This document shows positions 12,239 through 44,900 of a stretch of DNA of 64,000 nucleotides, piece after piece; positions within the stretch are counted from its first letter, which is position 1, and each line of letters begins with the position of its first letter. Made by a program: the position numbers and the translations under genes. Under the pieces are notes generated by a model. That model was not told where the DNA came from. It saw nothing but the letters and a program-made list of their open reading frames with translations, and did not search any database. This stretch comes from Gammaproteobacteria bacterium (lineage in GTDB: Bacteria; Pseudomonadota; Gammaproteobacteria; Steroidobacterales; Foliamicaceae): NCBI GenBank assembly GCA_009844425.1, contig VYBN01000031.1, positions 1 through 64,000 of the forward strand, in the 5' to 3' direction.

Positions 12239-12337
12239 GCCCTTCATTCGTCCCCTTCCTCGTTGGAGTCGCCATCCATGGCTCGGAATCGCTATCCTGC
12301 TTTTATGCTCCCACGAGGAAGGGGACGAACGAAGGGC
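12239..12337. repeat. Hairpin element A: 30-bp variable stem, conserved 39-nt apex
   Basis: A 99-bp inverted-repeat element 20 bp after the acyl-CoA dehydrogenase stop. Left arm 12239-12268 pairs with right arm 12308-12337 at 28 of 30 positions. The 39-nt apex (12269-12307) contains GCCATCCATGGC, a perfect mini-hairpin, and on the minus strand GCAGGATAGC, a second small one. The apex differs from that of element E (42137-42175) at a single base, yet the outer 20 bp of stem are largely different. No run of T follows, so it is not a standard intrinsic terminator. Confidence 0.9.
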
Positions 12338-12396
12338 TTGAGCTGGCGCGGTAGAAGGGCTTGCGTCCGCACGTTGGCAGCAATACGCCGACTGAA

Positions 12397-12505
12397 GGTT
12401 CCTCATGCACACCGGTTCCGGGAACGTCGGAGGCAGGGATGCCGACGCCGAGCCCACAGGGATGTGCTTGCCGGCGGTTCCCGGAACCGGTGTGCATGAG
12501 GAACC
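12397..12505. repeat. Hairpin element B: perfect 29-bp stem
   Basis: Left arm 12397-12425 and right arm 12477-12505 are perfectly complementary over 29 bp. The 51-nt apex carries GGCAGGGATGCC and CACAGGGATGTG, each a 3-bp mini-stem around an AGGGAT loop. It lies 59 bp after element A and 76 bp before leuS. The stem sequence is unrelated to that of A, but the overall design is the same. Confidence 0.9.
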
Positions 12506-12567
12506 GAAGGGCCAGATGGGGCGGAGGCAAGCCCCGCGCACCAGCCAATATACGCCCTGCCGGCCCG

Positions 12568-12573
12568 TACAAT
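12568..12573 (+). promoter_or_regulatory. -10-like box 8 nt before the leuS start
   Basis: TACAAT followed by exactly 8 bases and then ATG 12582. The same hexamer and spacing occur before folC (29493-29498). Transcription would begin at or next to the start codon, giving a leaderless mRNA; no Shine-Dalgarno sequence is visible. No convincing -35 box is seen. Confidence 0.35.
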
Positions 12574-12581
12574 TCGCGCCT

Positions 12582-15185
12582 ATGAGTTATCCGTTCGCCG
12601 AAATCGAACCGAAGTGGCAAGCGCGCTGGGAGCGTGACGGAACCTTCAGGACGCCGGTCCGGCCCGATCATTCGCGGCCCAAGGCCTACATCCTCGACAT
12701 GTTCCCCTATCCCAGCGGCGCCGGCCTGCACGTCGGCCACCCGGAGGGCTACACGGCGACCGACATCGTTGCCCGTTACAAGCGCATGCGCGGTTACAAC
12801 GTGCTTCACCCGATCGGCTGGGACGCCTTCGGCCTGCCGGCCGAGCAGTACGCGGTGCGCACCAACACGCATCCGCGGGTGACCACGCGCCGCAACATCG
12901 ACCGGTTCCGCATGCAACTGAAATCGCTGGGGTTCTCGTACGACTGGTCGCGCGAGATCAGCACCGCGGACCCGGACTATTACCGCTGGACGCAATGGAT
13001 TTTCCTCAAGCTCCACGAACGCGGGCTCGCCTACCAGGACGAGCAGCCGGTGTGGTGGTGCCCGGAACTCGGCACCACCCTGGCCAACGAGGAAGTCGTG
13101 GAAGGGCGTTCGGAAGTGGGCGGTTTCGCCTGCGAACGCCGGCCCCTGAGGCAGTGGATGCTTCGGATCACCGAGTACGCGGAGCGCCTGCTGGACGGGC
13201 TGGACGGCCTGGACTGGCCGGAGTCCACGCTGGAGATGCAGCGCAACTGGATCGGCCGCTCGGTGGGAGCGGAGATCGACTTCGAGCTGATCGGGAGCGA
13301 TGAAAAGATCCGGGTATTCAGTACCCGTCCCGACACAATCTTCGGCGCCACTTTCCTGGCCCTGTCGCCGGAGCATCCGCTGGTCGAGAAGCTCGCGACG
13401 CCCCAGCGTATCGACGGCGTGCGGCGCTATTGCCGCGAAGCGGCGCGCAAGAGCCAGCGCGCCCGCGCAGCGGACGCGCACGACCGCAGCGGCGTGGACA
13501 CGGGGGTGCGGGCCCGGCACCCGGTCACCGGCGAGGACGTGCCGGTGTGGGTGGCCGACTACGTGCTGATGGGCTACGGCACCGGGGCGATCATGGGCGT
13601 TCCCGGCGAGGACCAGCGCGACTGGGAGTTCGCGCTCGAGCATTCGCTGAAGTTCGTACGCACCGTTCAACCGCCGGAAGGCTATGAGGACGCGGCCTTC
13701 AGCGGCGAGGGCCTCGTGATCAACAGCGGTTTCCTGAACGGCATGCGCGTGGAGGAGGCCAAGCAGGCTGCGGTGGACTGGCTCGACCGGCGCGGCCGAG
13801 GTCGGGCGAGAATCGCCTACCGCCTGCGCGACTGGCTGTTCAGCCGCCAGCGTTACTGGGGCGAACCGTTTCCGGTCGTGTTCGTGGACGGCGTTGCGCG
13901 ACCGCTTCCGGAAACCGAACTGCCGCTGACGCTCCCGGACCTGGAGGACTTCCGGCCCAGCGGCTCTCCGGAGGGGCCGCTGGCCAAGGCAAGTGACTGG
14001 CTGGACACGGTCGATCCGTCCAGCGGCAGGCCGGCGCGCCGCGAGACCAACACGATGCCGCAGTGGGCGGGCTCGTGCTGGTACTACCTGCGCTTCATCG
14101 ATCCCCAAAATCCGGGCCGGCTGGTGGATCCGGAACTGGAGCGTTACTGGATGCCGGTGGACCTGTACATCGGCGGCGCCGAACACGCCGTGCTGCATCT
14201 CCTCTACGCGCGGTTCTGGCACAAGGTGCTGTACGACGCGGGCCTGGTGTCCTGCGACGAGCCTTTCCGCAAGGTCGTGCACCAGGGCGTGATTCTCGGC
14301 GAGCGCGAATACACCGCCTACCGGGACGACGCCGGCGCGCTGGTCTCGGCGGAACGCGCGCGCCGCGTGAGCGGTTCGCAGCCGGCAGCCTGGGTGGAGA
14401 AGGACAGCGGCGGGGAACTCGAACCCGTGGCCGTGAGCGAGGACGACGTGCTCAAGAGCGGGGAGAACTTTGTCCTGACCGCGGATGCGTCCGTAGTCCT
14501 CGAATCGCGCGCCCACAAGATGTCCAAGTCGCGCGGCAACGTGGTCAATCCCGAAGACGTCCTGAGCCACTGCGGGGCGGACGCATTCCGTCTCTACGAG
14601 ATGTTCTTGGGGCCGCTGGAAAAGTCCAAGCCCTGGAGCACCCGCGGGGTGGAGGGTCCGCATCGGTTCCTCAACCGCCTGTGGTCGCTGCTTGATCGCG
14701 GGGTGGCCGAGAAGGAACCGGCCGCCGAACAGATGCGGCTTCTGCATCGGACCATCGCGAAGGTCACCGAGGACATCCGGACGCTGCGGCTGAACACGGC
14801 CATCGCCGCCTTGATGGAAATGGTCAATGCGGCGGCCCGCTGGGATGAACTGCCGCGCGCCGTTGCCGAGCCGCTGGTGCTGCTGGTCAGCCCATTCGCG
14901 CCGCACATGGGCGAAGAGCTGTGGGAACTCCTGGGTCACGCCGAATCGCTGGCCAATGCGCCCTGGCCCGAGGCGCGCGAAGAATGGCTGAAGGAGGAGA
15001 CCGTGGAGATCGCGGTTCAGATCAACGGCAAGCTTCGCGCCAGCATCCGGGTGGCGGCCGGCGCAGAGCGCGACGACGTGCTGGCAGCTGCCCGCGGCAA
15101 CGAGCGGGTGGCCGCCCACCTGGCGGAAATCCCGATCCTGCGGGAAGTGTATGTGCCGGGCCGGGTCGTCAATTTCGTGGTGTGA
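12582..15185 (+). CDS. leuS: Leucyl-tRNA synthetase
   Basis: An 867-residue class I synthetase charging tRNA-Leu. The HIGH motif appears as HVGHPEGYTATD (about residue 50). The CP1 editing domain includes IRVFSTRPDTIFGATFLALSPEH, and the KMSKS loop is seen in HKMSKSRGNVVNPEDV. The anticodon-binding and C-terminal domains complete the usual length (E. coli 860). ATG 12582 begins the conserved MSYPFAEIEPKWQ; longer in-frame starts upstream run through hairpin element B and are rejected. It heads a long co-directional run with lptE six bases downstream. Confidence 0.98.
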   Translation: MSYPFAEIEPKWQARWERDGTFRTPVRPDHSRPKAYILDMFPYPSGAGLHVGHPEGYTATDIVARYKRMRGYNVLHPIGWDAFGLPAEQYAVRTNTHPRVTTRRNIDRFRMQLKSLGFSYDWSREISTADPDYYRWTQWIFLKLHERGLAYQDEQPVWWCPELGTTLANEEVVEGRSEVGGFACERRPLRQWMLRITEYAERLLDGLDGLDWPESTLEMQRNWIGRSVGAEIDFELIGSDEKIRVFSTRPDTIFGATFLALSPEHPLVEKLATPQRIDGVRRYCREAARKSQRARAADAHDRSGVDTGVRARHPVTGEDVPVWVADYVLMGYGTGAIMGVPGEDQRDWEFALEHSLKFVRTVQPPEGYEDAAFSGEGLVINSGFLNGMRVEEAKQAAVDWLDRRGRGRARIAYRLRDWLFSRQRYWGEPFPVVFVDGVARPLPETELPLTLPDLEDFRPSGSPEGPLAKASDWLDTVDPSSGRPARRETNTMPQWAGSCWYYLRFIDPQNPGRLVDPELERYWMPVDLYIGGAEHAVLHLLYARFWHKVLYDAGLVSCDEPFRKVVHQGVILGEREYTAYRDDAGALVSAERARRVSGSQPAAWVEKDSGGELEPVAVSEDDVLKSGENFVLTADASVVLESRAHKMSKSRGNVVNPEDVLSHCGADAFRLYEMFLGPLEKSKPWSTRGVEGPHRFLNRLWSLLDRGVAEKEPAAEQMRLLHRTIAKVTEDIRTLRLNTAIAALMEMVNAAARWDELPRAVAEPLVLLVSPFAPHMGEELWELLGHAESLANAPWPEAREEWLKEETVEIAVQINGKLRASIRVAAGAERDDVLAAARGNERVAAHLAEIPILREVYVPGRVVNFVV

Positions 15186-15190
15186 CTCCG

Positions 15191-15709
15191 ATGCGGGCTT
15201 TTCTGCCACGCGGCGCCGCGGCCTGCGCGCTGTCGCTCCTGCTCGCGGCCTGCGGCTTCCAGTTTCAGGGGCCGCTTGAGTTCCCGGCGCTATCCGGGGG
15301 CATCTGGCTGCAAAGCGCCCACGGTACGACGCCGCTTTGGCGCGCCCTGAACGAGCAATTGCGCCTGGCCGGGGTCACGTTGCACGGCGAGCCCGGAGAG
15401 AACGTTGCAATTCTGCGTCTGCTGGACGACGAAAGCGAAGAAAGCCTGGTGGCGATTTCCGCGAATAATCTGCCCACGGTCACGGAAATCAGCTACCGCG
15501 TGCGCTACACGCTCAGACTCGGCCCGGCGCGGCTGATCGAAGAGCGCGAGCGCGAAGCGAACCACGCCCGCGTGCAGGACGAGTTCCGGGTGCTGGGAAT
15601 GGAGCGGGAAACCGAGGTGCTGCGCGACGCCCTGGCCGAGGAACTGGCCTGGCAGATACTCCGCGACCTGGCCACGCTTCCGCCTCCGGCGGCAGCCGGC
15701 GGGCCATGA
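15191..15709 (+). CDS. lptE: LPS-assembly lipoprotein LptE
   Basis: A 172-residue outer-membrane lipoprotein that plugs the LptD barrel and helps deliver lipopolysaccharide to the cell surface. The signal peptide ends in the lipobox LAAC, with Cys21 to be lipidated. The body has the LptE pattern of a strand-helix sandwich (EISYRVRYTLRL, RDALAEELAWQILRDLATL near the C-terminus). It directly follows leuS, the classic gammaproteobacterial order. Its end overlaps the start of cysS by four bases, whereas holA would normally come next. Confidence 0.9.
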   Translation: MRAFLPRGAAACALSLLLAACGFQFQGPLEFPALSGGIWLQSAHGTTPLWRALNEQLRLAGVTLHGEPGENVAILRLLDDESEESLVAISANNLPTVTEISYRVRYTLRLGPARLIEEREREANHARVQDEFRVLGMERETEVLRDALAEELAWQILRDLATLPPPAAAGGP

Positions 15710-17088
15710 TCAGCCTCTACAACACGCTGGGCGGCGAGCGCCAGCCCTTTGTTCCCGGCGACGGGGACCGCGTGACCATGTACGTGTGCGGACCGACGGT
15801 CTATGGTCCCGCCCACATCGGCAACGCCCGCCCGGCCGTGGTGTTCGACGTGCTGGCGCGCCTTTTGCGCCGCCGCTACAACCTCGTTTACGCCAGCAAT
15901 ATCACGGACGTGGACGACAAGATCAACCAGGCGGCCGCCGAGAAGGGCGTGCCGATCGCGAGGGTCGCGCAGCGTTGGATCCGGACCTGGCGGGAAGACA
16001 TAGCCGGGCTGGGGGTGCTTGCGCCGGACCGGCAACCTCTCGCGACGGAACACGTGCCGCAAATGATCGGCCTGGTCAAGAGCCTGCTGAAGTCGGGGCA
16101 TGCCTACGAGGCGGAGGGCCACGTGCTGTTCCGGGTGGGCGCGTATGCCGCTTACGGCGAGCTTTCCGGGCGCAATCGTGACGAGCAGATTGCCGGCGCC
16201 CGCGTGGAGGTTGCGCCGTACAAGGAGGATCCGGCCGACTTCGTGCTGTGGAAGCCGTCTTCAGAAGAACTGCCCGGCTGGGAAAGTCCGTGGGGACGCG
16301 GGCGCCCCGGCTGGCACCTCGAGTGCTCGGCCATGGCCCGCGAACACCTGGGAGAGACGATCGACATTCACGGAGGGGGCCGGGACCTGATCTTTCCGCA
16401 CCATGAGAACGAGATCGCGCAGAGCCGCTGTGCGCACGGCGCCCCGCTGGCCCGCTACTGGATGCACAACGGCATGATCCGCATGGGCAAGTCGAAGATG
16501 GCCAAGTCCCGGGGAAACATCCTGACAATCCGCGAACTGCGCGGGAAAGTCCCGGGCGAGGTTCTGCGGCTGGCGCTTCTGAGCGCGCGTTACCGGGACC
16601 CGCTGGAGTGGAGCGACGAGCTGGTTGCGGCGTCCCGGCAGCGTCTGGACCGCCTGTATCGCGTTCTGCTCGACTGCGCCACTGAAACCCGGGAGGAAGG
16701 GCATTCACGCGCAGCGGAGCCGTCGGCGGAACTCGTTCAGGCGCTCGAGGACGACCTCAACACGCCGGCGGCGCTGAGCGTGCTGGCCGCGGAGGTGCGC
16801 AAGCTGCGGGCCGGGGCCGTGGAACCGGTCGTGGGGGCGGCTGCGCTCAAGGCCGGCGGCTTTCTTCTGGGCATACTTCAGACCGATCCCGCGGAGTGGT
16901 TTACGGTCGCGGAGAGCGAACCGGAACTCACCGCCGAGGAAATAGAAACGCGTATCGCCGAGCGGGCCAGGGAGCGCGCGGCCGGCGACTATGCCGCGGC
17001 CGATCGCATCCGCGATGAGCTCGCCGGACGCGGCGTGATCCTGGAAGACGGTCCGCAAGGCACGACCTGGCGCCGGACGGCGCTATGA
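15706..17088 (+). CDS. cysS: Cysteinyl-tRNA synthetase
   Basis: A 460-residue class I synthetase charging tRNA-Cys. The HIGH-equivalent is HIGN in YGPAHIGNARP. The zinc-binding residues that select cysteine are visible in YVCGPTVYG, HLECSAMA and HHENE. The KMSKS-equivalent is KMAKSRGN. Length matches E. coli CysRS (461). Its ATG overlaps the lptE stop (ATGA). Finding cysS between lptE and holA is not the arrangement of model gammaproteobacteria. Confidence 0.98.
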   Translation: MISLYNTLGGERQPFVPGDGDRVTMYVCGPTVYGPAHIGNARPAVVFDVLARLLRRRYNLVYASNITDVDDKINQAAAEKGVPIARVAQRWIRTWREDIAGLGVLAPDRQPLATEHVPQMIGLVKSLLKSGHAYEAEGHVLFRVGAYAAYGELSGRNRDEQIAGARVEVAPYKEDPADFVLWKPSSEELPGWESPWGRGRPGWHLECSAMAREHLGETIDIHGGGRDLIFPHHENEIAQSRCAHGAPLARYWMHNGMIRMGKSKMAKSRGNILTIRELRGKVPGEVLRLALLSARYRDPLEWSDELVAASRQRLDRLYRVLLDCATETREEGHSRAAEPSAELVQALEDDLNTPAALSVLAAEVRKLRAGAVEPVVGAAALKAGGFLLGILQTDPAEWFTVAESEPELTAEEIETRIAERARERAAGDYAAADRIRDELAGRGVILEDGPQGTTWRRTAL

Positions 17089-17095
17089 TTGAGCC

Positions 17096-17566
17096 ATGAG
17101 CGAACTGTTTGCGCCCCGGCGGACCGTGGTCCAGGTGGAAGAAAGCGCCGAGCTGGCGCCGAAATTCGACGCCAACGGTCTGATCCCGGCCGTGGTCACG
17201 GACCACGGCAGCGGGGAACTGCTGATGCACGCCTACATGAACCGCGAGGCGCTCGAGCTGACCATCACCACGGGCGAGGCGCACTACTTCAGCCGCAGCC
17301 GCAACAAGCTCTGGCGCAAGGGGGAAACCAGCGGTCTGAAGCAGCGGGTGCGCGAACTGCTGATCGACGACGATCAGGACTGCGTATGGCTGCGGGTGGA
17401 ACTGACCGGCGGCGCGAGCTGCCACGTGGGTTACCGGTCCTGCTTCTATCGCCGGGTCCCGCTGACTGCGGGCGGCGGGCCGGTCGAGCTGGAATTCACC
17501 GAGAGCGACAAGGTGTTCGATCCGGAGCAGGTTTACGCCGGGCAGGAAAACCCCACCCGATTGTGA
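17096..17566 (+). CDS. hisI: Phosphoribosyl-AMP cyclohydrolase
   Basis: A 156-residue enzyme of histidine biosynthesis that opens the adenine ring of PR-AMP. Typical motifs are [14 protein letters not shown], the [22 protein letters not shown] block and the zinc cysteines in [10 protein letters not shown] and [14 protein letters not shown]. It is a stand-alone HisI, not fused to HisE. A TATGAT box ends 6 nt before its ATG, so it may also have its own promoter inside the operon. No other his genes are in the window. Confidence 0.95.
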
Positions 17567-18000
17567 GCGTCGAATTGCCGGGCCCCGGAACTCTGCGGGA
17601 CGCCCAGGAAGAGCTGCTCGAAGAGCTGGGCTTCTTCGACAGCTGGATGGAGCGCTATCAGCACATTATCGAACTGGGCCGCAATGCGCCCGACTTTCCG
17701 GACGAGTGGCAGATTGAGGACAATCGCCTGCACGGCTGCCAGTCCCAGGTGTGGCTGAAGTCCTGGCAGGACGAAGGGCGCCTTTTTTTTCTTGCGATCA
17801 GCGATTCCGCGATCGTTTCCGGGCTGGCGGCGATCCTGATGCGCGTTTACAGCGGCCGGCGCCCGGCGGAGATCGTGGAGACGCCGCCCGACTTCATCGC
17901 CGGGGCCGGCCTGGACCGGCACCTGAGCCCGACCCGCAGCAACGGCCTGCATTCCATGGTGAACGAAATCCGGCAGCGGGCCGTAAAATGTCTGGAGTGA
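17563..18000 (+). CDS. sufE: SufE-like sulfur acceptor
   Basis: A 145-residue protein that takes persulfide sulfur from a cysteine desulfurase for Fe-S cluster assembly. The SufE hallmark is [10 protein letters not shown], whose Cys (about residue 60) is the sulfur acceptor, followed by [19 protein letters not shown]. The chosen start is GTG 17563, overlapping the hisI stop (GTGA). The frame is open further upstream through hisI, but that extension lacks family similarity. A desulfurase (SufS/CsdA) is not nearby. Confidence 0.88.
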
Positions 18001-18227
18001 AAGCAATCGCCATTGCGCTGATCCGCGCCTACCAGCTTTGCGTGTCTCCTTTCCTGGGTCCTCGCTGCCGCTTCCAGCCGACCTGCTCCCAATACGCCAG
18101 GGAGGCCATCGAAACTCACGGCCTGCCGCGCGGCTTCGGAATGTCCCTTCGCCGCCTGCTGCGCTGCCACCCGCTGGGCCCATCGGGCTGGGACCCGGTG
18201 CCACCGGTCAAGATCGACCGGCCCTGA
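17988..18227 (+). CDS. yidD: YidD, membrane protein insertion efficiency factor
   Basis: A 79-residue protein with the YidD signature: [34 protein letters not shown] followed by RLLRCHPLG and a GWDPVP end. YidD is a small inner-membrane-associated protein that assists YidC-dependent membrane insertion. It is usually encoded between rnpA and yidC near the origin; here it is inside the leuS-holA run. Its ATG lies within the last codons of sufE (13-bp overlap). Confidence 0.92.
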
Positions 18228-18228
18228 C

Positions 18229-18486
18229 GTGGACCAATCCCTTCTGTCGCTCCTGCGATGCCCGAGGACCGGCGGCGAACTGCGCCTTGCCGGGGCGGAG
18301 GAGCTTGCGGAATACAACGAAGGCGTACGGGAAGGGAGGCTGAGCAACGCCGCCGGCCGGAAACTCACGCGGGCGATGGAAGGTGCACTGGTCTCCGAAT
18401 GCGGCAGCTGGCTCTACCCGGTGCATGAAGGCATTCCGGTGCTGCTGGTCGACGAAGCTGTTGCGCTCGCCGATACGTGCGCCTGA
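18229..18486 (+). CDS. Trm112/UPF0434-family small protein
   Basis: An 85-residue protein. The start LLSLLRCPRTGGELRL and the C-terminal LVSECGSWLYPVHEGIPVLLVDEA match the Trm112-like (UPF0434, YcaR) fold, a zinc-ribbon-like domain that in eukaryotes activates methyltransferases. Only two cysteines remain, so zinc binding is doubtful. GTG 18229 is the start, one base after yidD. Its end overlaps holA by 10 bp. Confidence 0.8.
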   Translation: MDQSLLSLLRCPRTGGELRLAGAEELAEYNEGVREGRLSNAAGRKLTRAMEGALVSECGSWLYPVHEGIPVLLVDEAVALADTCA

Positions 18487-20514: not shown

Positions 20515-20528
20515 CGGTCCGGCGGCAT

Positions 20529-26816: not shown

Positions 26817-26925
26817 GCGCATCTGTTGCGCCCCTTCTCGCGGGAGTGTCGAAGGCAGGATGCCTCTCGTCAAGCGTCATGGATGACGAATGCGTCTCAC
26901 GCGAGAAGGGGCGCAATAGATGCGC
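26817..26925. repeat. Hairpin element C: 30-bp stem with twin mini-hairpin apex
   Basis: Left arm 26817-26846 pairs with right arm 26896-26925 at 28 of 30 positions. The 49-nt apex (26847-26895) includes GGCAGGATGCC and GTCATGGATGAC. It begins 17 bp after the tldD stop and ends 40 bp before purE. The apical part GTCGAAGGCAG resembles the same place in element B (GTCGGAGGCAG), whereas the stems are unrelated. Confidence 0.9.
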
Positions 26926-31954: not shown

Positions 31955-31962
31955 TGCGACTT

Positions 31963-32049
31963 ACCTGGGGGGCGGCATTCCGGCCTGAGACCCTTGTTGA
32001 GGGGAACCCCTTGAACCTGATCCGGTTAGTACCGGCGGAGGAACGAGGT
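31963..32049 (+). promoter_or_regulatory. TPP riboswitch (THI element)
   Basis: The thi-box consensus is plain: CTGAGA at 31985-31990, CCCTTGAACCTGAT at 32008-32021, and the closing CCGGTTAGTACCGGCGGAGGAA. ACCT at 31963-31966 can pair with AGGT at 32046-32049 to close P1. The ATG of the TonB receptor follows at once (32050). The conserved 3' strand of the aptamer contains GGAGG (32037-32041), 8 nt from the start codon, so the ribosome site is part of the aptamer. Binding of thiamine pyrophosphate should hide it and shut translation directly. Confidence 0.95.
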
Positions 32050-34173
32050 ATGCGGCATTTCAATTCGCGCAGTTTTTTTCTTTCGGCAAGCGTCTTTCTG
32101 GCGACCGCGGCTCTTGCGCAGGAATCCGCGCAGGATTCGGCTTCGGACCCGCTGGAGGAGGTGGTGGTCACGGCGTCGCTGAAGGAGGTGCGGAGCCTGG
32201 ACCTCTCTACCAGCGTAACCGTGCTGGATGCGCAGACCATTCGCAATTCGGCGGTGCAGCATTTCGAGGAGTTGGCCCAGCTCACGCCCAATCTGCACTG
32301 GGCCGGCGGATCTTCGCGGGCCCGCTATTTCCAGGTGCGCGGCATCGGCGAGCGCTCGCAGTACGAGGGCGCTCCGAACCCGTCGGTGGGGTTCCTTCTC
32401 GACGACATCGACTTCTCGGCCCTGGGCGGAGTGGCCACGCGTTTCGACCTGGGCAGCGTCGAGATATTGCGCGGGCCCCAGGGCACGCGCTACGGCGCCA
32501 ACGCACTGGCGGGCCTGATTTACGCGCGCTCCAGGGAGCCGTCCCGCGAGCGGGAGGCCGAGGCCGAGATTTCGCTGGGCAATGACGCCATGCACGCCGC
32601 GGGGCTGGCGTTGAGCGGCCCGCTGGGCCCGGCCGCCGCCGGTCGGTTTTCTGCCCACCATTACCGCACCAACGGGTTCCGCCGCAACGCCACGCTGGAT
32701 CGCGACGACACCAACGGCCGGCAGGAACTGAGCCTGAGGGCCCGGCTCAACTACGAGCCATCTCCGGAACTGGCGCTGAAGCTGACGCTGCTGCATATCG
32801 ACCTGGACAACGGCTACGACGGCTGGTCCATCGACAACGAACTGACCACGTGGTCGGACCGTCCGGGGCGCGATTCGCAGGCGTCCACGGGCGCGTCGCT
32901 GCGCGCCGACCTGGAGCTTTCCGGCGGCCACAGCCTGGTGAGCATTACCGGCGCGGCGAGTTCCGATATCGAACACAGCTACGACGCCGACTGGGGAGAG
33001 GACGGCTACTGGTCGGAGATCGCCGGCTTCGAGATGCACTACGACTACACCTCGCGTACCTTGCGCGAGCGCTCCGGTTTCAGCCAGGAACTGCGCCTCT
33101 TGTCGCCGGCGGAAAGCGCGGCGGGCTATGTGCTCGGCGTCTGGTATCTGAACCTGGATGAAGACAATGACCGCACCGACACGGGTCTTTACGCGGAGCC
33201 GGGCTACGCGCCCGGACCCAGCGAAGACCGGTTCGATTCCGGCTACGGCGCGGACAGCCTTGCGCTGTTCGGCGAATTGTCGCGCGCGTTCGCGGACCAA
33301 TGGCGGGTCACGGCGGGCCTGCGCTGGGAACGGCGCGACTCCGATTACGCCGATTCGAACGGAGAGCTGTTTTCGCCGTCGGACGACATGCTGGGCGGCC
33401 ATTTGAGCGTTTCGCGACCCTTCGGCGAGGACGCGAACGTTTATGTGCGGATTGCGCGCGGCTACAAGGCCGGCGGGTTCAACCTGGGCCTGGGAGGCCG
33501 GGGACTGACCAGCGACGAACTGCTGTACGAGCCGGAATTCCTCTGGAACTACGAGATCGGCGCCAAGGGCCTGTGGCTGGACGGGCGCCTGCGCGGCGAA
33601 CTGGCCGTGTTCCATTCGCAGCGCGTGGACGTGCAGGTGGACACGTCCCGGCAGGTGGATCCCCAGGACCCAAACACCTTCCTGTTCTTTACCCGGAACG
33701 TCGGGCGCGGAGTCAACCGCGGCGTCGAGTTGACCCTGGAGTACCGGCCCGGCGACGCCTGGCGCATGAGCGCGGCCCTGGGATTGCTGGACACGGAAAT
33801 CACCCGCTACCCGGGCCGTCCCGAACTGGAGGGCCGCGAGCAGCCGCACGCGCCGGGCTACGGTTATGCCCTCGGCGCGCAGTGGCGACATCCGCAAGGC
33901 TGGTTCGCCGGCGGCGAACTGACCGGCAAGGACGGCTTCTATTTCTCCAACAGCCACGACCGCAAGTCGGAGGCGTACACGCTGCTGAACCTGCGCGCCG
34001 GGCGGGCCTGGAACGGCTGGGAGGCATTCGCATGGGCGCGCAATCTGCTGGATGAGTACTACGCAATCCGCGGTTTCTACTTTTCCAACGTGCCTCCGGA
34101 CTGGCCCGAACAGGAGTTCCGCCAGCAGGGCGATCCGCGGCATTTCGGCGTTACGATACGTCGCCGGTTTTGA
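32050..34173 (+). CDS. TonB-dependent outer-membrane receptor, probably for thiamine
   Basis: A 707-residue outer-membrane transporter: signal peptide (FFLSASVFLATAALAQ), TonB-box region (LEEVVVTAS), plug domain (SVTVLDAQTI..., VEILRGPQGTRYGANALAGLI) and a C-terminal 22-strand barrel ending in a Phe (TIRRRF). TonB receptors take up scarce ligands using proton-motive energy. The TPP riboswitch directly upstream and the thiamine-binding, PnuT and kinase genes downstream identify thiamine or a close precursor as ligand. ATG 32050 is fixed by the riboswitch's embedded ribosome site. Confidence 0.9.
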   Translation: MRHFNSRSFFLSASVFLATAALAQESAQDSASDPLEEVVVTASLKEVRSLDLSTSVTVLDAQTIRNSAVQHFEELAQLTPNLHWAGGSSRARYFQVRGIGERSQYEGAPNPSVGFLLDDIDFSALGGVATRFDLGSVEILRGPQGTRYGANALAGLIYARSREPSREREAEAEISLGNDAMHAAGLALSGPLGPAAAGRFSAHHYRTNGFRRNATLDRDDTNGRQELSLRARLNYEPSPELALKLTLLHIDLDNGYDGWSIDNELTTWSDRPGRDSQASTGASLRADLELSGGHSLVSITGAASSDIEHSYDADWGEDGYWSEIAGFEMHYDYTSRTLRERSGFSQELRLLSPAESAAGYVLGVWYLNLDEDNDRTDTGLYAEPGYAPGPSEDRFDSGYGADSLALFGELSRAFADQWRVTAGLRWERRDSDYADSNGELFSPSDDMLGGHLSVSRPFGEDANVYVRIARGYKAGGFNLGLGGRGLTSDELLYEPEFLWNYEIGAKGLWLDGRLRGELAVFHSQRVDVQVDTSRQVDPQDPNTFLFFTRNVGRGVNRGVELTLEYRPGDAWRMSAALGLLDTEITRYPGRPELEGREQPHAPGYGYALGAQWRHPQGWFAGGELTGKDGFYFSNSHDRKSEAYTLLNLRAGRAWNGWEAFAWARNLLDEYYAIRGFYFSNVPPDWPEQEFRQQGDPRHFGVTIRRRF

Positions 34174-34183
34174 GGAAAGGACC

Positions 34184-34453: not shown

Positions 34454-34473
34454 CTGCCGGCGCCTGATTCCGC

Positions 34474-35819: not shown

Positions 35820-35840
35820 CCGCCGCCGATTCTTTATGCT
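35812..35840 (+). promoter_or_regulatory. Promoter for the aldehyde dehydrogenase gene, apparently leaderless
   Basis: TTGATT (35812-35817), a 17-bp spacer, then TATGCT (35835-35840). ATG 35849 is 8 nt beyond the -10 box, so the transcript should start at about the start codon. The -35 box overlaps the stop codon region of the thiamine kinase gene. Confidence 0.45.
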
Positions 35841-35848
35841 CGCCCGCC

Positions 35849-38109: not shown

Positions 38110-39661
38110 CGCCACGTCCATCCTCACTTTTGTCCTGATCCTCGGGGCGTCGCTGCTGATCACCTGGCAGGCGGGACGGCGGACGCGTTCGTCCTCGGAG
38201 TTCTACGCGGCCTCGCACTCGGTGGGCGGTTTCAGCAACGGGCTGGCGATCGCCGGGGACCACCTCTCGGCCGGAACGCTGCTGGGAGTGACCGCCGTGA
38301 TCTATACGGACGGATACGACGGACTGATCTACATGACGGGCGGGGCGGTCGGATATCCGCTGTTGATGTGCCTGCTCGCGGAACGGCTGCGGAACCTGGG
38401 CAGCTACACGTTCGTGGACGTGCTGTCGGCGCGCTTCCGCGAAAACTCGATCCGCGTGCTGGCGGCCACCGGGACGCTGGTGGCCGCGGTCCTGTACCTG
38501 ATTTCGCAGATGGTGGCGGGCGGCGCGCTGTTCGAGGTGCTGTTCGGCATTCCCTATCCCTGGGCCGTCGCGATGGTGGGCGGCCTGACCGTGCTCTACG
38601 TAAGCGTGGGAGGAATGCTGGCGACCACCTGGGTGCAAATGACCAAGGCCGTGCTGCTCATGTTCTCGATTCTCGTTCTGCTCGCCCTGCTCATGCTGAA
38701 TCTGGGCGAGGGTCCGCTGTCGCTGCTGGAGTCGGCGGCGCGCGTCCACCAGCGGGGCGAGGAGTGGCTGAGCCCGGGACAATTCCTGCCGGACAGGATC
38801 TCGATCTTTGCGTTTGTCCTGACCGGCATCGTCGGCATGGTCGGTCTGCCGCATCTGCTGATGCGCTTCTTTACGGTGCCCGACGCCCGGCAGGCGCGCC
38901 GGTCCGCGGTCTTCGCCACGGGCTACATCGTGACTTTTTCGCTCCTGCTCTGGATTACCGGGCTCGGCATCGTCGTGCTGCTGGCCGGGAATACGGAGAT
39001 CCTGGACGAGCAGGGAGGCATGATCGGCAGCACCAATATGGCGATCATGCACGCGGCGCGAATCATCGGCGGCAACGTGCTGCTGGGATTCATGGCTTCG
39101 GTGGCTTTCGCCACGCTCCTGGCGGTGGTTTGCGGACTGGTGCTGGCGGCCGCTGCGGCGATGGCGCACGATCTCTACAGCGGGGTCTACAAGCGCGGCC
39201 GCGTCGACGACCGCACCGAGGTCCGGGCCTCGCGGATCAGCGTCGTGGCGCTGGGCGCGCTGGCCGTGGCGCTGGGAATCCAGTTTCGGGGCCAGAACGT
39301 GGCCTATCTGACCGCGCTCGCCTTCACCGTGGCCGCCAGCGTCAATACGCCGGCGCTGGTTGCGGCCCTGTTCTGGCGCGCCGCCAGCGCGCGCGGCCTG
39401 ATCCTCGGAGGCTGGGTGGGGATGGTCGTTTCGGTGGTCTTGCTGGCGCTGAGCCCGGCCGTCTGGGAAGGCGCCCTTGGACTTGAGAACGCGCCGTTCC
39501 CGTGGATTTACCCCGGACTGTTCTCGATTCCCGCGGCGGCCCTCGTAATCGTTGTAGTATCGCTTGCGGACCGCAGCCCCGAGGCGATGCTGGGGCGCCG
39601 GCGTTACGATGAATTGCTGGCGCCGTCCGTGCTTGGGCGGCGGGATACACCCGTGATTTAG
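38099..39661 (+). CDS. Sodium:solute symporter, ActP-like (monocarboxylate)
   Basis: A 520-residue integral membrane protein of the SSS family with about 13 helices. The N-terminal GRRTRSSSEFYAASHSVGGFSNGLAIAGDHLSAGTLLGVTA and the LPHLLMRFFTVPDARQARRSAVFATGYI block are typical of the acetate/pyruvate permease branch (ActP, MctP). It would import acetate or a short monocarboxylate with sodium. The overlap with the DUF485 gene supports the pairing. Hairpin element F begins at its stop codon. Confidence 0.88.
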   Translation: MAPNATSILTFVLILGASLLITWQAGRRTRSSSEFYAASHSVGGFSNGLAIAGDHLSAGTLLGVTAVIYTDGYDGLIYMTGGAVGYPLLMCLLAERLRNLGSYTFVDVLSARFRENSIRVLAATGTLVAAVLYLISQMVAGGALFEVLFGIPYPWAVAMVGGLTVLYVSVGGMLATTWVQMTKAVLLMFSILVLLALLMLNLGEGPLSLLESAARVHQRGEEWLSPGQFLPDRISIFAFVLTGIVGMVGLPHLLMRFFTVPDARQARRSAVFATGYIVTFSLLLWITGLGIVVLLAGNTEILDEQGGMIGSTNMAIMHAARIIGGNVLLGFMASVAFATLLAVVCGLVLAAAAAMAHDLYSGVYKRGRVDDRTEVRASRISVVALGALAVALGIQFRGQNVAYLTALAFTVAASVNTPALVAALFWRAASARGLILGGWVGMVVSVVLLALSPAVWEGALGLENAPFPWIYPGLFSIPAAALVIVVVSLADRSPEAMLGRRRYDELLAPSVLGRRDTPVI

Positions 39662-39921
39662 TGCCGTGTAAAGCTCACATTGTCGCATCAGCGCGTCTCC
39701 CCTGGTTCGTGGCAAGGCGCGTCCCGCCGGGAATGGCGCCCCCATTGCCCAGGGGCGCAACGCGACCACGGGCCAGGGGAGACGCGCCCTTCGGGAGCTT
39801 GCGTAGCGCGCCCCTGCGGCGTTGCAGCCGTCCGCAATACGGCGAGTATTCCGGGCCGGCTGCGCCTTGCAGGGACACGCTACGCAAGCTCTGATGCGAC
39901 AATATGAGCTTGACACGGCAC
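39661..39921. repeat. Element F: 261-bp three-way-junction inverted repeat
   Basis: Outer arms 39661-39690 and 39892-39921 pair at 28 of 30 positions. Inside are two further hairpins. The first is 39691-39712 with 39766-39787 (22 bp including two G-T wobbles). The second is 39795-39808 with 39878-39891 (14 bp perfect, extended by CCCTGC/GCAGGG). The folded form is a Y or cloverleaf starting exactly at the actP-like stop and ending 28 bp before bioB. Open frames on both strands inside it follow from the symmetry and are not genes. Confidence 0.85.
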
Positions 39922-39936
39922 TAGTGCAATAGTGCA
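39918..39936. promoter_or_regulatory. TAGTGCA direct repeats / palindrome before bioB
   Basis: TAGTGCA occurs twice (39922-39928 and 39930-39936), one turn or less apart, and GCACTA...TAGTGC forms an inverted repeat. It lies 14 bp before the bioB start and could be an operator for the biotin genes. It does not match a BirA or BioR site I know. Confidence 0.25.
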
Positions 39937-39949
39937 CCAGGAGGCGAGC

Positions 39950-40921
39950 ATGCCGGACTTGACAAGGGCGGACGTCGCGGCGATCTACCATTCCCCGCTG
40001 CTGGACCTGGTCTACAGGGCGGCGACCGTGCACCGCGAGCATCATGCGCCGGGCGAGGTGCAGCTCTGCACGCTGCTTTCGGTCAAGACCGGCGGCTGCC
40101 CCGAGGACTGCGCCTATTGTCCGCAGGCGGCCCGCTACCACACCGGTATCGACCGGCACGGCCTGCTGGATCTGGACGCGGTGCTGGAAGCCGCGCGTGA
40201 AGCCAGGGAGGCGGGCAGCACCCGCTTCTGCATGGGCGCCGCCTGGCGCGAAGTGCGCGACAACCGCCATTTCGACGAGGTGCTGCAGATGGTGTCCGGC
40301 GTCCGCGACCTGGGCCTTGAGGTCTGCTGCACGCTGGGCATGCTCACCGAATCGCAGGCCGAGCGCCTCAAGGAAGCGGGCCTCTACGCCTACAACCACA
40401 ACCTCGATTCCAGCCGCGAGTTCTATCCCGAGATCATCGGCACGCGCACCTATGACGACCGCCTCGCGACCCTGGCCAACGTGCACAAGGCCGGCCTGTC
40501 GGTATGCTGCGGCGGCATCATCGGGATGGGCGAAACAGTCGATCAGCGCATCGACCTGCTGCACACGCTGGCCACCCTGCCCAGCCCGCCGGAGTCGGTT
40601 CCGGTCAACGCGCTCGTCCCCGTGCCCGGAACGCCCCTGGAGGACTGCCCGCCGGTCTCCACCTGGGAAATGGTCCGGATGATCGCGAGCGCGCGCGTGC
40701 TCATGCCCAGGGCCATGGTGCGCCTGTCCGCCGGGCGCTCGCGCATGAGCGCCGAGCAGCAGGCCCTGTGTTTCCTGGCCGGCGCGAATTCGATCTTCAC
40801 CGGCGAAAAGCTGCTTACCACGCCGAACCCCTCGTTCGACAGCGACGAGGGATTGCTTGAGCTGCTGGGCCTCACCCCCAGAGAACCGTACACGCAGCAG
40901 GATACTCACGCGGCTGCATGA
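39950..40921 (+). CDS. bioB: Biotin synthase
   Basis: A 323-residue radical-SAM enzyme that inserts sulfur into dethiobiotin. The AdoMet-cluster motif CPEDCAYCPQ (C-x3-C-x2-C) is near residue 48, and YNHNLDSSREFYPEI and CGGIIGMGET are typical of BioB. AGGAGG eight bases upstream selects ATG 39950 over an in-frame ATG at 39932. Its last codon overlaps bioF (ATGA). It opens the biotin cluster. Confidence 0.97.
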   Translation: MPDLTRADVAAIYHSPLLDLVYRAATVHREHHAPGEVQLCTLLSVKTGGCPEDCAYCPQAARYHTGIDRHGLLDLDAVLEAAREAREAGSTRFCMGAAWREVRDNRHFDEVLQMVSGVRDLGLEVCCTLGMLTESQAERLKEAGLYAYNHNLDSSREFYPEIIGTRTYDDRLATLANVHKAGLSVCCGGIIGMGETVDQRIDLLHTLATLPSPPESVPVNALVPVPGTPLEDCPPVSTWEMVRMIASARVLMPRAMVRLSAGRSRMSAEQQALCFLAGANSIFTGEKLLTTPNPSFDSDEGLLELLGLTPREPYTQQDTHAAA

Positions 40922-42054
40922 GCGCTGCGATACGGCGCGCCATAAGGGAGGCGCTCAGGGAGCGCGAAAAGGCCGGCCTGCTGCGCAGCCTGGAGACGGC
41001 GCCCGGCGGTATCGACTTCTGCTCCAACGACTACCTGGGCCTGGCCCGCGACCGGCGCCTGCGCCGAAGGATCGCCGCGCTCGCCGCCGACAGCGCCGCG
41101 CCGCAGGGAGCGACGGGTTCCCGGCTCATTTCGGGCAACCACCCGGAAATCGAGGCGCTGGAGGACCGGCTTGCCGGGTTCTATTCGTCCGAGGCCGCGC
41201 TGGTTTTTTCCAGCGGCTTCGCCGCCAACCTCGGGTTGCTTGCAAGCCTGGGCGGACTCGTGCAGACGCTGATCTGCGACCGCCTGCTTCACGCCAGCGC
41301 CATCGACGGGGGCCGCCTCAGCGGCGCGAAGCGGGTGATCTTCGCGCACAATGACATGCGCGACCTCAAGGCCAGGCTGGGCGAACTGCATTCCGGGGAA
41401 ACCGCCGCGGTGGCGGTGGACACGGTCTATTCGATGGACGGCGACTTTGCACCGATCGAGGAAATAGCGGATCTGGCCGAAGAACATGATGCCGCGGTCG
41501 TGGTGGACGAGGCGCATGCCAACGGCGTGCTGGGGCCCGCGGGCCGCGGCGGCGCGGTCGCCGCCGGGCTGCAGGACCGGGTGCTGGCCCGCGTGGTGAC
41601 TTTCGGCAAGGCGTTGGGGTTGCAGGGCGGCGCCGTGCTGTGTTCGAAGGACCTGCGCGATTACCTCGTGAATTTTGCCCGTTCGTTCGTGTTCTCCACG
41701 GGGGTTTCGCCGCTCTGGGCGGCAAGCGTGCGGGCCGTTTACGAACTGCTTCCGGAATTGAATGCGGAGCGCGAGCAATTGCTGGGCAACGTCACCTATT
41801 TTCGCGAGCGCGTGGCGGAGTCCGCGCAGCCCTGGCTGGAGAGCGAGTCATGGATCCAGTGCCTGCGCGTTCCCGGCGCCCGGCGCATAACGCGCGTGGG
41901 CGGCATTGTTCGCAGCCGCGGGCTTGCCGCGCTGCCGATTCGCGCGCCCACCGTTCCGGCGGGCGAGGAGCGAATCCGAGTGTGCCTGCACGCATACAAC
42001 ACCAAGGAGGAAATCGACCTGCTGTTCAGCGCCGTGGACGAAGCGCTGCGTTAG
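40918..42054 (+). CDS. bioF: 8-amino-7-oxononanoate synthase
   Basis: A 378-residue PLP enzyme joining pimeloyl-ACP (or -CoA) with alanine. Motifs include CSNDYLGLARD, GATGSRLISGNHPEIEALE, VDEAHANGVLGPAGRG and the PLP-lysine region VVTFGKALGLQGG. It overlaps bioB by four bases. Hairpin element E follows its stop by 52 bp and separates it from the peroxiredoxin and bioD/bioA. Confidence 0.96.
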   Translation: MSAAIRRAIREALREREKAGLLRSLETAPGGIDFCSNDYLGLARDRRLRRRIAALAADSAAPQGATGSRLISGNHPEIEALEDRLAGFYSSEAALVFSSGFAANLGLLASLGGLVQTLICDRLLHASAIDGGRLSGAKRVIFAHNDMRDLKARLGELHSGETAAVAVDTVYSMDGDFAPIEEIADLAEEHDAAVVVDEAHANGVLGPAGRGGAVAAGLQDRVLARVVTFGKALGLQGGAVLCSKDLRDYLVNFARSFVFSTGVSPLWAASVRAVYELLPELNAEREQLLGNVTYFRERVAESAQPWLESESWIQCLRVPGARRITRVGGIVRSRGLAALPIRAPTVPAGEERIRVCLHAYNTKEEIDLLFSAVDEALR

Positions 42055-42106
42055 CACGCATGCCGCCAGCTAACGGAGTCCCGGTCGCGCGAGGCGCTTC
42101 GATTCC

Positions 42107-42205
42107 GCCCCTTTGTGTGCCTTCCTCTCGTTGGAGTCGCCATCCATGGCTCGGAATCGCTATCCTGCTTTTACGCTCCAACGAGAGGAAGGCACACAAA
42201 GGGGC
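42107..42205. repeat. Hairpin element E: perfect 30-bp stem, apex nearly identical to element A
   Basis: Left arm 42107-42136 and right arm 42176-42205 are fully complementary over 30 bp. The 39-nt apex (42137-42175) equals that of element A except for one T/C change. The ten stem positions next to the apex (CTCGTTGGAG) are also shared, but 12 of the outer 20 differ from A, and the partner arm has changed to match. It lies between bioF and the peroxiredoxin gene. Confidence 0.92.
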
Positions 42206-42260
42206 TACGGTGTGCGCATTCCCGGATCGAAGTGCCGACAGAAACTTCTCGGTAAGTGGA

Positions 42261-42266
42261 TATAAT
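42261..42266 (+). promoter_or_regulatory. Consensus -10 box before the peroxiredoxin gene
   Basis: TATAAT, a perfect -10 hexamer, 32 nt upstream of ATG 42299 and downstream of element E. It suggests that the peroxiredoxin-bioD-bioA segment has its own promoter. No clear -35. Confidence 0.4.
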
Positions 42267-42298
42267 TTTCCGCCCCCAGCCACCACCGGTAACGTCTC

Positions 42299-42847
42299 AT
42301 GAAAAACATTCTCGCTGTTTGCGCGCTGGCCTTTGCGGGCGCAGCCTGCGCCACTACCGACCCGCTTGAGGCCGGTTCCGCCGCGCCGGACTGGACCCTT
42401 CCGGGCTCTGATGGAAACGAGTACTCGCTGTCCGAACTCCGCAGGGACGGCGCCGTGGTGCTTGCCTGGTTCCCAAAGGCCGATACGCCCGGGTGCACAA
42501 GAGAATGCCAGTCCTTGACCAGGAACGGCGACAAGATCCGCCAGTTCAAGGTTAGCTACTTCATGGCCAGCACCGACCCGATTGAGGACAACACGGCCTT
42601 CGCACAGAAGTACGGCGCCGACTTCCCGATCCTTTCCGACGAGTCGAAGGAAGTGGCCGAAGCCTATCAGGTCATGAGTTCTTTCGGCTTCGCCAGTCGC
42701 CACACGTTCTACATCGGCGCTGACGGCCGGATTATCGAAATCGATCGGAACGTCAATGCCGATACGGCCGCCGAGGACATTGCCGCCACCCTCGAACGCC
42801 TGGGCGTGGAGAAACGAGCCGCACCCGAATCCGCTGCCGGCCGCTAG
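42299..42847 (+). CDS. Exported peroxiredoxin of the Bcp/PrxQ type
   Basis: A 182-residue peroxiredoxin. Residues 1-17 form a signal sequence ending in AGAAC, which could be a weak lipobox (Cys17) or a simple signal peptide. The peroxidatic Cys66 is in ADTPGCTREC and a second Cys70 lies four residues on, a PrxQ-like pair with slightly unusual spacing (family often plus five). FPILSDESKEVAEAYQV and FYIGADGRI complete the fold. It detoxifies peroxides, probably in the envelope. It sits inside the biotin cluster without an obvious functional link. Confidence 0.82.
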   Translation: MKNILAVCALAFAGAACATTDPLEAGSAAPDWTLPGSDGNEYSLSELRRDGAVVLAWFPKADTPGCTRECQSLTRNGDKIRQFKVSYFMASTDPIEDNTAFAQKYGADFPILSDESKEVAEAYQVMSSFGFASRHTFYIGADGRIIEIDRNVNADTAAEDIAATLERLGVEKRAAPESAAGR

Positions 42848-42883
42848 CCGGGTCGCGCGCTGCATCAGGCCGCGCGGCTCGCA

Positions 42884-43492
42884 GTGCGATTTGCGATTGC
42901 GGGCATCGGCACCGGCGTCGGCAAGACGCTGGTGGCGGCGCTCTTCGTGGAGCGCCTGGGGGCCGCCTACTGGAAACCGATACAGGCCGGCGGCCTGGCG
43001 CATACGGACACCGAGGAGGTTCGCCGGCTGGTCACGCTAAGCCGCGCCCCCTTCCTGCCCGAGGCGTACAGCCTGCATGCGGCGATGGCGCCGGACGCCG
43101 CGGCGGCCCAGGAGGGCGTCACCCTACGCAAGGAGGGACTGCGCCTGCCGGATGCGGAAGGCCCGCTGGTGGTGGAACCGGCCGGCGGCGTGCTCGTGCC
43201 GGTGGCCGATGGCCTGCTCAACGTCGATCTTCTGAAATACTGGAACCTGCCGGTCGTGGTTGTTTCCAGCTACTACCTGGGCAGCATCAATCACACGCTG
43301 CTTACGGTGGAGGCGCTCAATTCGCGTGAACTGCCGCTGGCCGGCATCGTATTCAACGGCGAGCGGAACGACCATTCCCGCAGCGTGATCCTACGCGAGA
43401 CCGGGCTGAAGTGCCTGCTCGATCTTCCCAAGCTGCGCCAGCCGGTAAGCCCCAGGCAGGTAAAGGCCTACGCGGCGAGAATCGACCTGTGA
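42884..43492 (+). CDS. bioD: Dethiobiotin synthetase
   Basis: A 202-residue ATP-dependent enzyme closing the ureido ring of dethiobiotin. The P-loop is [17 protein letters not shown] (residues 7-23). [22 protein letters not shown] and GIVFNGE are the other conserved parts. It starts at GTG 42884 and overlaps bioA by four bases at its end. Confidence 0.95.
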
Positions 43493-44790
43493 ACGACCGC
43501 CTGTCCGCCGCCGACCTGGATTTCGACCGGCGGCACCTCTGGCATCCCTACGAATCCATGCGGAATCCCACGCCGGTCTATCCGGTGGCCTCCGCCCGCG
43601 GCGTGCGCCTGACGCTGGCCGACGGGCGGGAGCTGATCGACGGGATGTCGTCGTGGTGGTCGGTAATCCACGGTTACAACCACCCTGCGCTGAACCGCGC
43701 GGCGCGCAAGCAGATATCGCGCATGCCGCACGTTATGTTCGGGGGGTTCACGCACGCCCCTGCAATCCGTCTGGCGCAACGGCTGGTCGAATGGACTCCG
43801 GGCGACCTGGACCGGGTCTTTTTTTCCGATTCGGGGTCGGTGGCCGTGGAGGTGGCGATCAAGATGGCCCTGCAGTACTGGCGCGCCCGCGGGGTGGCGG
43901 GCCGGACGCGGTTGCTGACCATACGGGGCGGTTATTACGGCGACACCTTCCAGGCCATGTCGGTCTGCGATCCGGTGACCGGCATGCATCACCTGTTTTC
44001 CGGCGTCGTTTCCGAACAGCTGTTCGCCGACAGACCGCGCGTGCGCTACGGCGAGTCCTGGGCCCCTTCCGACCTGGATTCGCTGGAGGACCTGGCGGAC
44101 CGGCACAACGACGAGATTGCGGCGGTGATCCTGGAGCCGATCGTGCAGGGCGCCGGCGGCATGCGCTTCTATCATCCCGGGTATCTGAACGGCGCGCGCG
44201 AACTGTGCGACCGTCTGGGGATTCTGCTGATCGCCGACGAGATCGCCACCGGGTTCGGGCGCAGCGGCGAACTGTTCGGCTGCAATCACGCCGGCGTGGT
44301 TCCCGACATCATGTGCGTGGGCAAGGCGCTCACCGGCGGTTACCTGAGCCTGGCGGCCACGCTGGCGCGGCCGCACGTCGCCGAGACGATCTCGGACACT
44401 GACGGCGCCGCCGGCGTGCTGATGCACGGCCCCACGTTCATGGCCAATCCGCTGGCCTGCGCGATCGCCAATGCCAGTGTGGAACTCTTGCTGGACTCGC
44501 CGTGGAGAAAACGCGTGGCCCGGGTCGAACGCGAACTGCGCCGGGGCCTTGCGCCCTGCCGCGATCTGGCTCAGGTAGCGGATGTGCGCGTGCTCGGCGC
44601 CATCGGAGTGGTGGAGATGCGCAAACCTGTGGACGTGGCGGAGATCCAGCGCCGCCTCGTGGAGCGCGGCGTGTGGGCCCGGCCGTTCGGCAAGCTGATC
44701 TATCTGATGCCGGCCTACGTGATGTCCGTGCGGGACTTAAGGCGCCTGTGCGCCGCCGTTTGCGAAACCGCCGCTCTCGAGTCCGCGTAG
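43489..44790 (+). CDS. bioA: Adenosylmethionine-8-amino-7-oxononanoate aminotransferase
   Basis: A 433-residue class III PLP aminotransferase using AdoMet as amino donor. BioA marks are HLWHPYESM at the N-terminus, [49 protein letters not shown] and the PLP lysine in [13 protein letters not shown]. The start is GTG 43489 overlapping bioD (GTGA). Hairpin element D starts four bases after its stop. bioC and bioH, which make the pimeloyl precursor, are not in the window. Confidence 0.96.
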
Positions 44791-44793
44791 CCC

Positions 44794-44900
44794 GCCTTTC
44801 CTTGCTCCCATTGTGCCGGGAGACGCATGAACCCATCCCTGGGGCTTGATCCGCCATCCATGGCTTCTATACTCCCGGCACAATGGGAGCCAGGAAAGGC
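44794..44900. repeat. Hairpin element D: 29-bp stem, twin mini-hairpins in reversed order
   Basis: Left arm 44794-44822 pairs with right arm 44872-44900 at 28 of 29 positions. The 49-nt apex holds CCCATCCCTGGG and GCCATCCATGGC, the complement of AGGGAT and ATGGAT loops. In the orientation where loops read ANGGAT, the ATGGAT hairpin comes first, opposite to the order in A, C and E. It begins four bases after the bioA stop and ends 23 bp before the enoyl-CoA hydratase. Confidence 0.9.

Follow-up and report, generated by a model that had tools for sequence, protein, structure and literature searches.

The window analysed here, a stretch of 64,000 nucleotides (positions 1 to 64,000 of contig VYBN01000031.1, assembly GCA_009844425.1) from a gammaproteobacterium of the Foliamicaceae, carries five intergenic hairpins that head the list of 18 inverted repeats returned by an inverted-repeat scan and that are members of a large dispersed, apparently non-coding hairpin-repeat family of about 100-110 bp per element. 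In each, a long stem encloses an apex with two mini-hairpins, whose loops read ATGGAT, AGGGAT or AGGAT on one strand; the left arm ends in GGAG in four of the five elements and in GGAAC in the fifth. An earlier note, made from the letters of this stretch, had described the five elements, and their coordinates, pairing, apex lengths, arm ends and loops were all recovered as it gave them (Table 1).

Searches beyond the window established the size of the family. In the 3.03-Mb genome that holds the window (G000), the 12-mer GCCATCCATGGC was counted 34 times and its reversed control zero times, and all 30 of the sites that were retrieved are enclosed by inverted repeats whose apices measure 39-50 nt, L021, where a similar arm adjoins, after its inner arm pair was re-read. 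A covariance model of 14 copies (R1), which represents the long stem and mini-hairpin 1 correctly but wrongly leaves mini-hairpin 2 unpaired, gave at least 149 matches in G000 (150 candidates scored) and at least 29-66 matches per genome in eight congeners (G001-G008; 66 candidates scored each), with the nine genus genomes being 66-95% complete. Three of 49 other genomes of the order had matches (1-6 each). Among the matches listed from other taxa, the same hairpin build was found in Marinobacter, Halospina, Halovibrio and Vreelandella, and the AGGGATG/ATGGATG palindromes that the earlier note mentioned for other gammaproteobacterial spacers belong to this kind of element. A Marinobacter copy was sought on plasmids and phages and none was found there, and a literature search of titles and abstract openings, with most subscription papers outside its reach, found no description of the hairpin family. 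Together, these results define a real, large and unusual repeat family.

To describe its anatomy we used a model-free definition, which 148 hairpins satisfied in the window and the fetched G000 stretches; setting aside five of another family left 143, and setting aside three more with a 32-nt loop left 140, while the counts of stem mismatches and mini-stem cores given below used all 148. Stem length is nearly fixed genome-wide, as had been proposed from the five window copies: arms measure 28-31 bp in 128 of 143 copies, with apices of 39-41 nt in 32 copies and 48-51 nt in 89. Between copies, the arms are identical at 49% of sites and equal-length apices at 80% (140 elements). Stem sequence, which the earlier note took to be free, does vary between copies and is nevertheless partly constrained, with 59% identity in the inner half and 40% in the outer half compared with a composition expectation of 30%, and with an outer end that is mostly GCC...GGC. 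Apices reach 61-89 nt in some copies, where a longer GC-rich hairpin extends one of the mini-hairpins or takes its place (L229 in G001, L203 11829, L299 15044 and the G006 sites of L300 1001 and L045 1501).

The apex mini-hairpins follow the pattern CA-N-GGA-N-G, which is the code of CsrA/RsmA sites. When the forward strand is defined as the core-richer one, the 140 apices contain 234 CA(N)GGANG cores on that strand and none on the other (shuffled mean, 6.3); 94 of 143 elements have two cores, 46 have one and three have none. The outer mini-stem triplets occur in seven perfectly paired forms, with 231 of 235 cores paired. At the first loop letter after A, G is about as frequent as T, whereas the letter that follows GGA is preferentially T, in agreement with the consensus from systematic evolution of ligands by exponential enrichment (SELEX). 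Divergence between G000 and its congener G006 followed the same code: across 20 pairs of apices, with cores defined in either species, the fixed core letters changed at 2 of 180 positions compared with 9 of 30 at the first N and 3 of 30 at the second (12 of 60 together; Fisher p = 1.4e-6), alongside 10 of 180 changes in the mini-stems and 16 of 559 in the linkers. In other taxa, 38 long-stemmed elements from Marinobacter, Halospina, Halovibrio and Vreelandella were found by exact match to the first core, and the second core fits CANGGANG in all 38, with all four letters occurring at its first N.

For CsrA itself, a SELEX consensus of RUACARGGAUGU is reported, mostly in six-nucleotide loops on at most four base pairs, and the CsrB repeat is given as CAGGA(U/A/C)G (PMC7652899). 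The GTACAGGGATGT form of the element in Halovibrio and Vreelandella matches this SELEX consensus exactly. Each of the nine genus genomes encodes one csrA, with a 65-aa protein in G000. The apex thus has the traits expected of a candidate CsrA site, namely an A(N)GGA loop with C-G closure on a short hairpin and free N positions, and at the level of motifs the case for CsrA binding appears strong; we hold it with moderate confidence.

The closest known structure is the Rfam family TwoAYGGAY (RF01731, clan CL00106), which has 21 matches in G000, all at coordinates of the hairpin family and all below the cut-off (best score 33.5 bits versus a threshold of 43), and no match in a scan of the window at the gathering threshold. 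TwoAYGGAY was reported from gammaproteobacteria, Clostridiales and the human gut (Weinberg 2010, PMC2864571) and was proposed as a CsrA-binding RNA from motif matches (PMC4333381). It appears to share with our elements two AYGGAY-type loops and a poorly conserved external stem, but no dispersed repeat family is described for it in the available text of these papers, whereas here more than 100 dispersed copies occur in both orientations with copy-specific 30-bp stems. The sponge RNAs CsrB/CsrC and RsmX/Y/Z likewise use this loop code, in GGA hairpins that recur along the RNA (PMC7652899), but are single genes with many sites per RNA, compared with two candidate sites per dispersed element here. 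RsmU of Xanthomonas is described as an RsmA-binding RNA cut from an mRNA 3' untranslated region (UTR); it differs in occupying one locus, described as restricted to Xanthomonas, where GGA changes reportedly failed to abolish its binding or function (PMC7694677).

Elements lie mostly outside genes and often close behind stop codons. Gene calls came from a codon-usage script with approximate borders, and because the stretches were picked for their model matches, the densities do not represent the genome as a whole. Codirectional genes flank 60 of the 93 elements, convergent genes 26 and divergent genes seven, and only eight elements overlap a called gene. Among neighbouring genes in these element-rich stretches, an element lies between 19 of the 43 pairs that are convergent, 51 of the 226 that are tandem and 4 of the 37 that are divergent. 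Single copies outside called genes account for 53 of the 93, and their median distance behind a stop codon is 22 nt (53 copies, 63 measurements). Adjacent copies, by comparison, follow a strict rule: minus-then-plus order was found in 17 of 17 pairs in the G000 stretches, and the same order in seven pairs read from the G006 list. With this order in the pairs and no strand bias in the singles (counts below), the pairs show a fixed dyad and the singles are unoriented.

This placement, together with the high stability of the window copies when folded as RNA, is what would be expected of an mRNA 3'-end hairpin acting as a stabiliser, an RNase III site or a bidirectional terminator, whose stem is held by selection on RNA folding. 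Ordinary intrinsic terminators were rejected, since no U-run follows the stem: around the 140 elements T accounts for no more than 0.44 of the letters at the first flank position and no more than 0.24 at the next 14, on both sides. Stem evolution was examined both within G000 and between species.

In the alignment of 14 copies, 24 of 30 long-stem pairs show two-sided changes and 97.6% of cells are paired, with a single G-U cell in the long stem; none of 500 shuffles reached the values for the whole structure as drawn for R1. Between G000 and G006, 65 orthologous sites were located for the 148 hairpins, from which we took 30 orthologue pairs that retain the same stem (876 stem pairs, one chimera set aside). 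Here, two-sided changes were counted at 87 stem pairs and one-sided changes at 30, where independence expects 11.9 and 180.2; a stricter set of 26 gave 57 and 27, where independence expects 6.6 and 127.9. The rate of double change, 9.9% (7.5% in the strict set), is close to the 11.5% found at fourfold sites (2602 of 22588, 109 genes). Transversions make up 37 of the 85 Watson-Crick double changes, and these had therefore no route through a G-U intermediate, while change in two steps, with a broken pair in between, should run far below the neutral rate. Among extant stems, 115 of 4304 pairs are mismatched (A-C, 29; G-T, 23), and on the strand of the neighbouring gene G-T is likewise no commoner than A-C (8 versus 12). 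On the assumption that mismatches are neutral and that copying alone removes them, this standing level of 2.7% would imply that stem pairs are re-copied tens of times faster than they mutate.

The apices are inverted in 4 of the 30 same-stem pairs (arm identity of at least 0.75), with arm identities of 0.98, 0.91, 0.89 and 0.79. Arm homogenisation and spacer inversion are described as known outcomes of template switching between inverted repeats (PMC8604942, PMC8794818), and because apex flips occur together with two-sided stem changes near the neutral rate, template switching on DNA fits the concerted change of the arms better than RNA selection does. We regard it as the agent with high confidence, and arm-to-arm copying as a well-supported explanation of the variable-stem rule and of the stem part of the family's behaviour. 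The described cases of hairpins shaped in this way, with arm homogenisation and loop inversion between relatives, concern yeast genes, microRNAs and rRNA stems (PMC8604942, PMC8794818); here, a whole repeat family is involved, the flipped apices are about 50 nt long and stem renewal proceeds near the neutral rate. Two G006 copies with unmatched arms (L209 1003 and L207 3245) look like unrepaired exchange, as if two elements had recombined within the apex. RNA pairing selection is disfavoured as the main force by the near absence of G-U, by G-T being no commoner than A-C and by the lack of strand bias, and the same three results tell against the 3'-UTR mRNA stabiliser that the earlier note had offered, insofar as its stem would be kept by selection on pairing. 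An mRNA 3'-end hairpin would, in addition, leave the transversion double changes, their near-neutral rate, the missing T-run and the strand-specific loop code unexplained, and we consider it improbable.

Presence at the five window sites varies across the eight congeners, and of the 65 orthologous sites in G006, 20 were script-scored as empty, of which reading leaves 13 without a trace; the other seven hold remnants (three), another element or a chimera (two) or another hairpin family (two). The earlier note's picture of an intergenic family with nearly fixed arm length, variable arm sequence and a conserved apex holds, and its members are dispersed and present or absent at orthologous sites. 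Twenty pairs of copies share at least 0.93 of the arm, and 18 of these have unlike flanks (elements with a neighbour at this arm identity number 22 of 140 by rounding and 20 in a recount). For element 2 and the L210 10141 copy, the left flank is also shared (0.84), and pairs may therefore be copied as a unit. Overall, copies come and go, with some whole-element copying and some exchange within the apex. We rejected the idea that the stem is made anew from target DNA at insertion, given near-identical arms at loci with unlike flanks in 18 of 20 pairs; it is also contradicted at 12 of the 13 traceless G006 sites, where the longest word shared with the arm is no longer than those that shuffled arms also produce. 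At the remaining site, L198 14838, which adjoins another element, the shared word is 12 nt long against a shuffle maximum of 9.

Such turnover invites comparison with the repetitive extragenic palindromic (REP) elements and their REPIN and BIME arrangements, described as short dispersed extragenic hairpins with inverted doublets and high copy number (PMC3116915). Membership in the RAYT-type REP group, as the earlier note had suggested, was rejected: stems of GTAG families are reported at 6-13 bp (PMC3733652) compared with about 30 bp here, the poorly conserved stems end in GGC, with no GTAG/CGTC column pattern at the ends or flanks of the 140 elements, and the Y1/RAYT transposase (PF01797) was found in none of the nine genomes, which are 66-95% complete, by a search that was positive in 5 of 14 known control genomes. 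In a looser version, the elements are non-autonomous mobile DNA of REP/REPIN type, an unrecognised nuclease or transposase reads the ANGGAN apex, the CsrA likeness is a coincidence and the host gains no role. The copy number of at least 149, the 13 of 65 traceless sites and the inverted doublets in fixed order are all consistent with it, as is an apex constraint that holds regardless of the direction of the neighbouring gene; so is the lack of a target-site duplication, with direct repeats of 3-8 nt flanking the 140 elements no more often than after shuffling. But Y1_Tnp is absent, no transposase for the spread of copies or other associated gene was identified, though no general search for one was made, and the apex varies precisely at the positions that are free in the CsrA code, with T favoured after GGA. 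We consider this version unlikely.

A chromosome-organising DNA site, at which gyrase, IHF or a cruciform-binding protein would need a cruciform plus the apex, could account for elements that are independent of orientation and largely independent of stem sequence, and for the fixed order of pairs. Sites that are empty in a close congener and a strand-specific constraint on single loop letters would be unexpected for such a site, and it seems very improbable.

Our preferred reading is therefore a stem of about 30 bp that copies itself, combined with a conserved apex in CsrA code and placement behind stop codons, to which we assign a probability of roughly 0.6. The family, its placement, the concerted arm change, the apex inversion and the loop-code constraint are computed directly; the explanation of variable stems by arm-to-arm copying and the match of the apex loops to the CsrA/RsmA code go beyond the earlier note. 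During replication, the polymerase would switch template within the hairpin and copy one arm onto the other, and a mutation in an arm would soon be copied to the partner arm or erased, with the whole apex sometimes flipped. The stem would drift at a nearly neutral rate with near-perfect pairing, giving each copy its own stem. Copies would sit behind stop codons in either orientation, as singles or as fixed-order inverted pairs, and would be gained and lost between close species. RNA read in the sense orientation would present the two candidate binding sites of the apex, on a stalk, to the one CsrA protein of G000. Judged from motifs, a collective role of the elements as a CsrA sponge deserves low to moderate confidence, and its full form, a genome-dispersed sponge in which more than 100 mobile two-site stalks would jointly set free CsrA while replication re-copies their stems, is a tentative proposal.

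Several observations weigh against this reading. The three-way junction that the earlier note drew from the window copies is not always the minimum-energy RNA fold; in folds of the forward strands, at least one GGA core is unpaired in 107 of 140 elements but at least two in only 23. The stem analysis draws on a single pair of species and depends on the cut-off that defines the same stem, transversions are 44% of double changes compared with 61% of fourfold changes, so that some transition preference remains, and ectopic conversion among copies could add to both the double changes and the uniformity of the apex. CsrA sites should also lie on the transcribed strand, but single copies in tandem spacers number 21 sense and 18 antisense, when transcription is assumed to follow the adjacent called genes, and other taxa, sponge-type bins included, gave 19 sense and 14 antisense. 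Fixed core letters changed at 2 of 66 positions in antisense copies and 0 of 84 in sense copies; the loop code is thus kept in antisense copies too, and a simple cis-acting mRNA site does not explain the constraint. The drop from 20 script-scored empty G006 sites to 13 traceless ones belongs here as well, as do the many orthologous sites at which G000 and G006 carry different subtypes or stems. In the scan of other taxa, 80 loci retrieved among the matches listed gave 81 sites, of which 28 have no enclosing repeat, including scattered, chance-like matches in unrelated phyla; at a stricter setting, such a repeat is still lacking at three of the 13 Vreelandella sites and two of the six Pseudoxanthomonas sites. 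All four long-stemmed Pseudoxanthomonas elements, and 1 of 10 from sponge-type bins, showed no second core 3' of the first, and the exact apex 18-mer is rare, occurring in two of 369 genomes of the class, G000 among them.

Table 1. Hairpin elements and other features of the window (positions count from the first letter of the stretch).
Feature	Position (strand)	Arms	Paired	Apex	Mini-hairpins or inner hairpins	Remarks
Element 1	12239-12337 (-)	12239-12268 / 12308-12337	28/30	39 nt	minus strand: GCCATGGATGGC 12271-12282; GCAGGATAGC 12291-12300	left partner of a minus/plus pair; same site in G006 holds a relative with a 40-nt apex
Element 2	12397-12505 (+)	12397-12425 / 12477-12505	29/29	51 nt	GGCAGGGATGCC 12432-12443; CACAGGGATGTG 12455-12466	right partner of the pair; G006 site without element 2
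Element 3	26817-26925 (+)	26817-26846 / 26896-26925	28/30	49 nt	GGCAGGATGCC 26854-26864; GTCATGGATGAC 26876-26887	site occupied in G006 and in 0/7 other congeners
Element 4	42107-42205 (-)	42107-42136 / 42176-42205	30/30	39 nt	minus strand: 42139-42150; 42159-42168	no trace at the G006 site
Element 5	44794-44900 (-)	44794-44822 / 44872-44900	28/29	49 nt	minus strand: CCCAGGGATGGG 44832-44843; GCCATGGATGGC 44853-44864	starts a few nt past the stop codon of called gene 43489-44790; orthologues in G006, G002 and G001 with perfectly paired stems differing at few pairs
Second hairpin repeat	39659-39923	outer inverted repeat, 33 bp			39691-39787; 39795-39891	inner apices AATGG..CCATT and AATAC..GTATT
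Imperfect palindrome	50248-50319	32 bp, TTGACATATTTGTCAA-like halves	81%	8-nt centre		upstream of gene called at 50481
TPP (thiamine pyrophosphate) riboswitch	31958-32061					65 bits
tRNA	5268-5340

Other features of the window include a second hairpin repeat, of which seven copies of 262-269 bp were found in the window and 40 fetched G000 stretches. Its outer arms (32-38 bp) differ between copies and stay paired, and G006 lacks the L208 and L215 copies. The imperfect palindrome is perhaps an operator.

If the genome-dispersed sponge proves true, the element would combine the nature of a selfish repeat with that of a distributed regulatory RNA, and CsrA, a global regulator, may face a shifting decoy load from a repeat family. 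The family also offers more than 100 natural replicates for the question of whether selection or the copying machinery maintains long perfect stems, two forces that can be separated by numbers, namely near-neutral double changes, transversions, the lack of a G-U path and apex flips. Carriers include several marine and halophilic gammaproteobacteria, some of them named strains, which makes these proposals testable at the bench.

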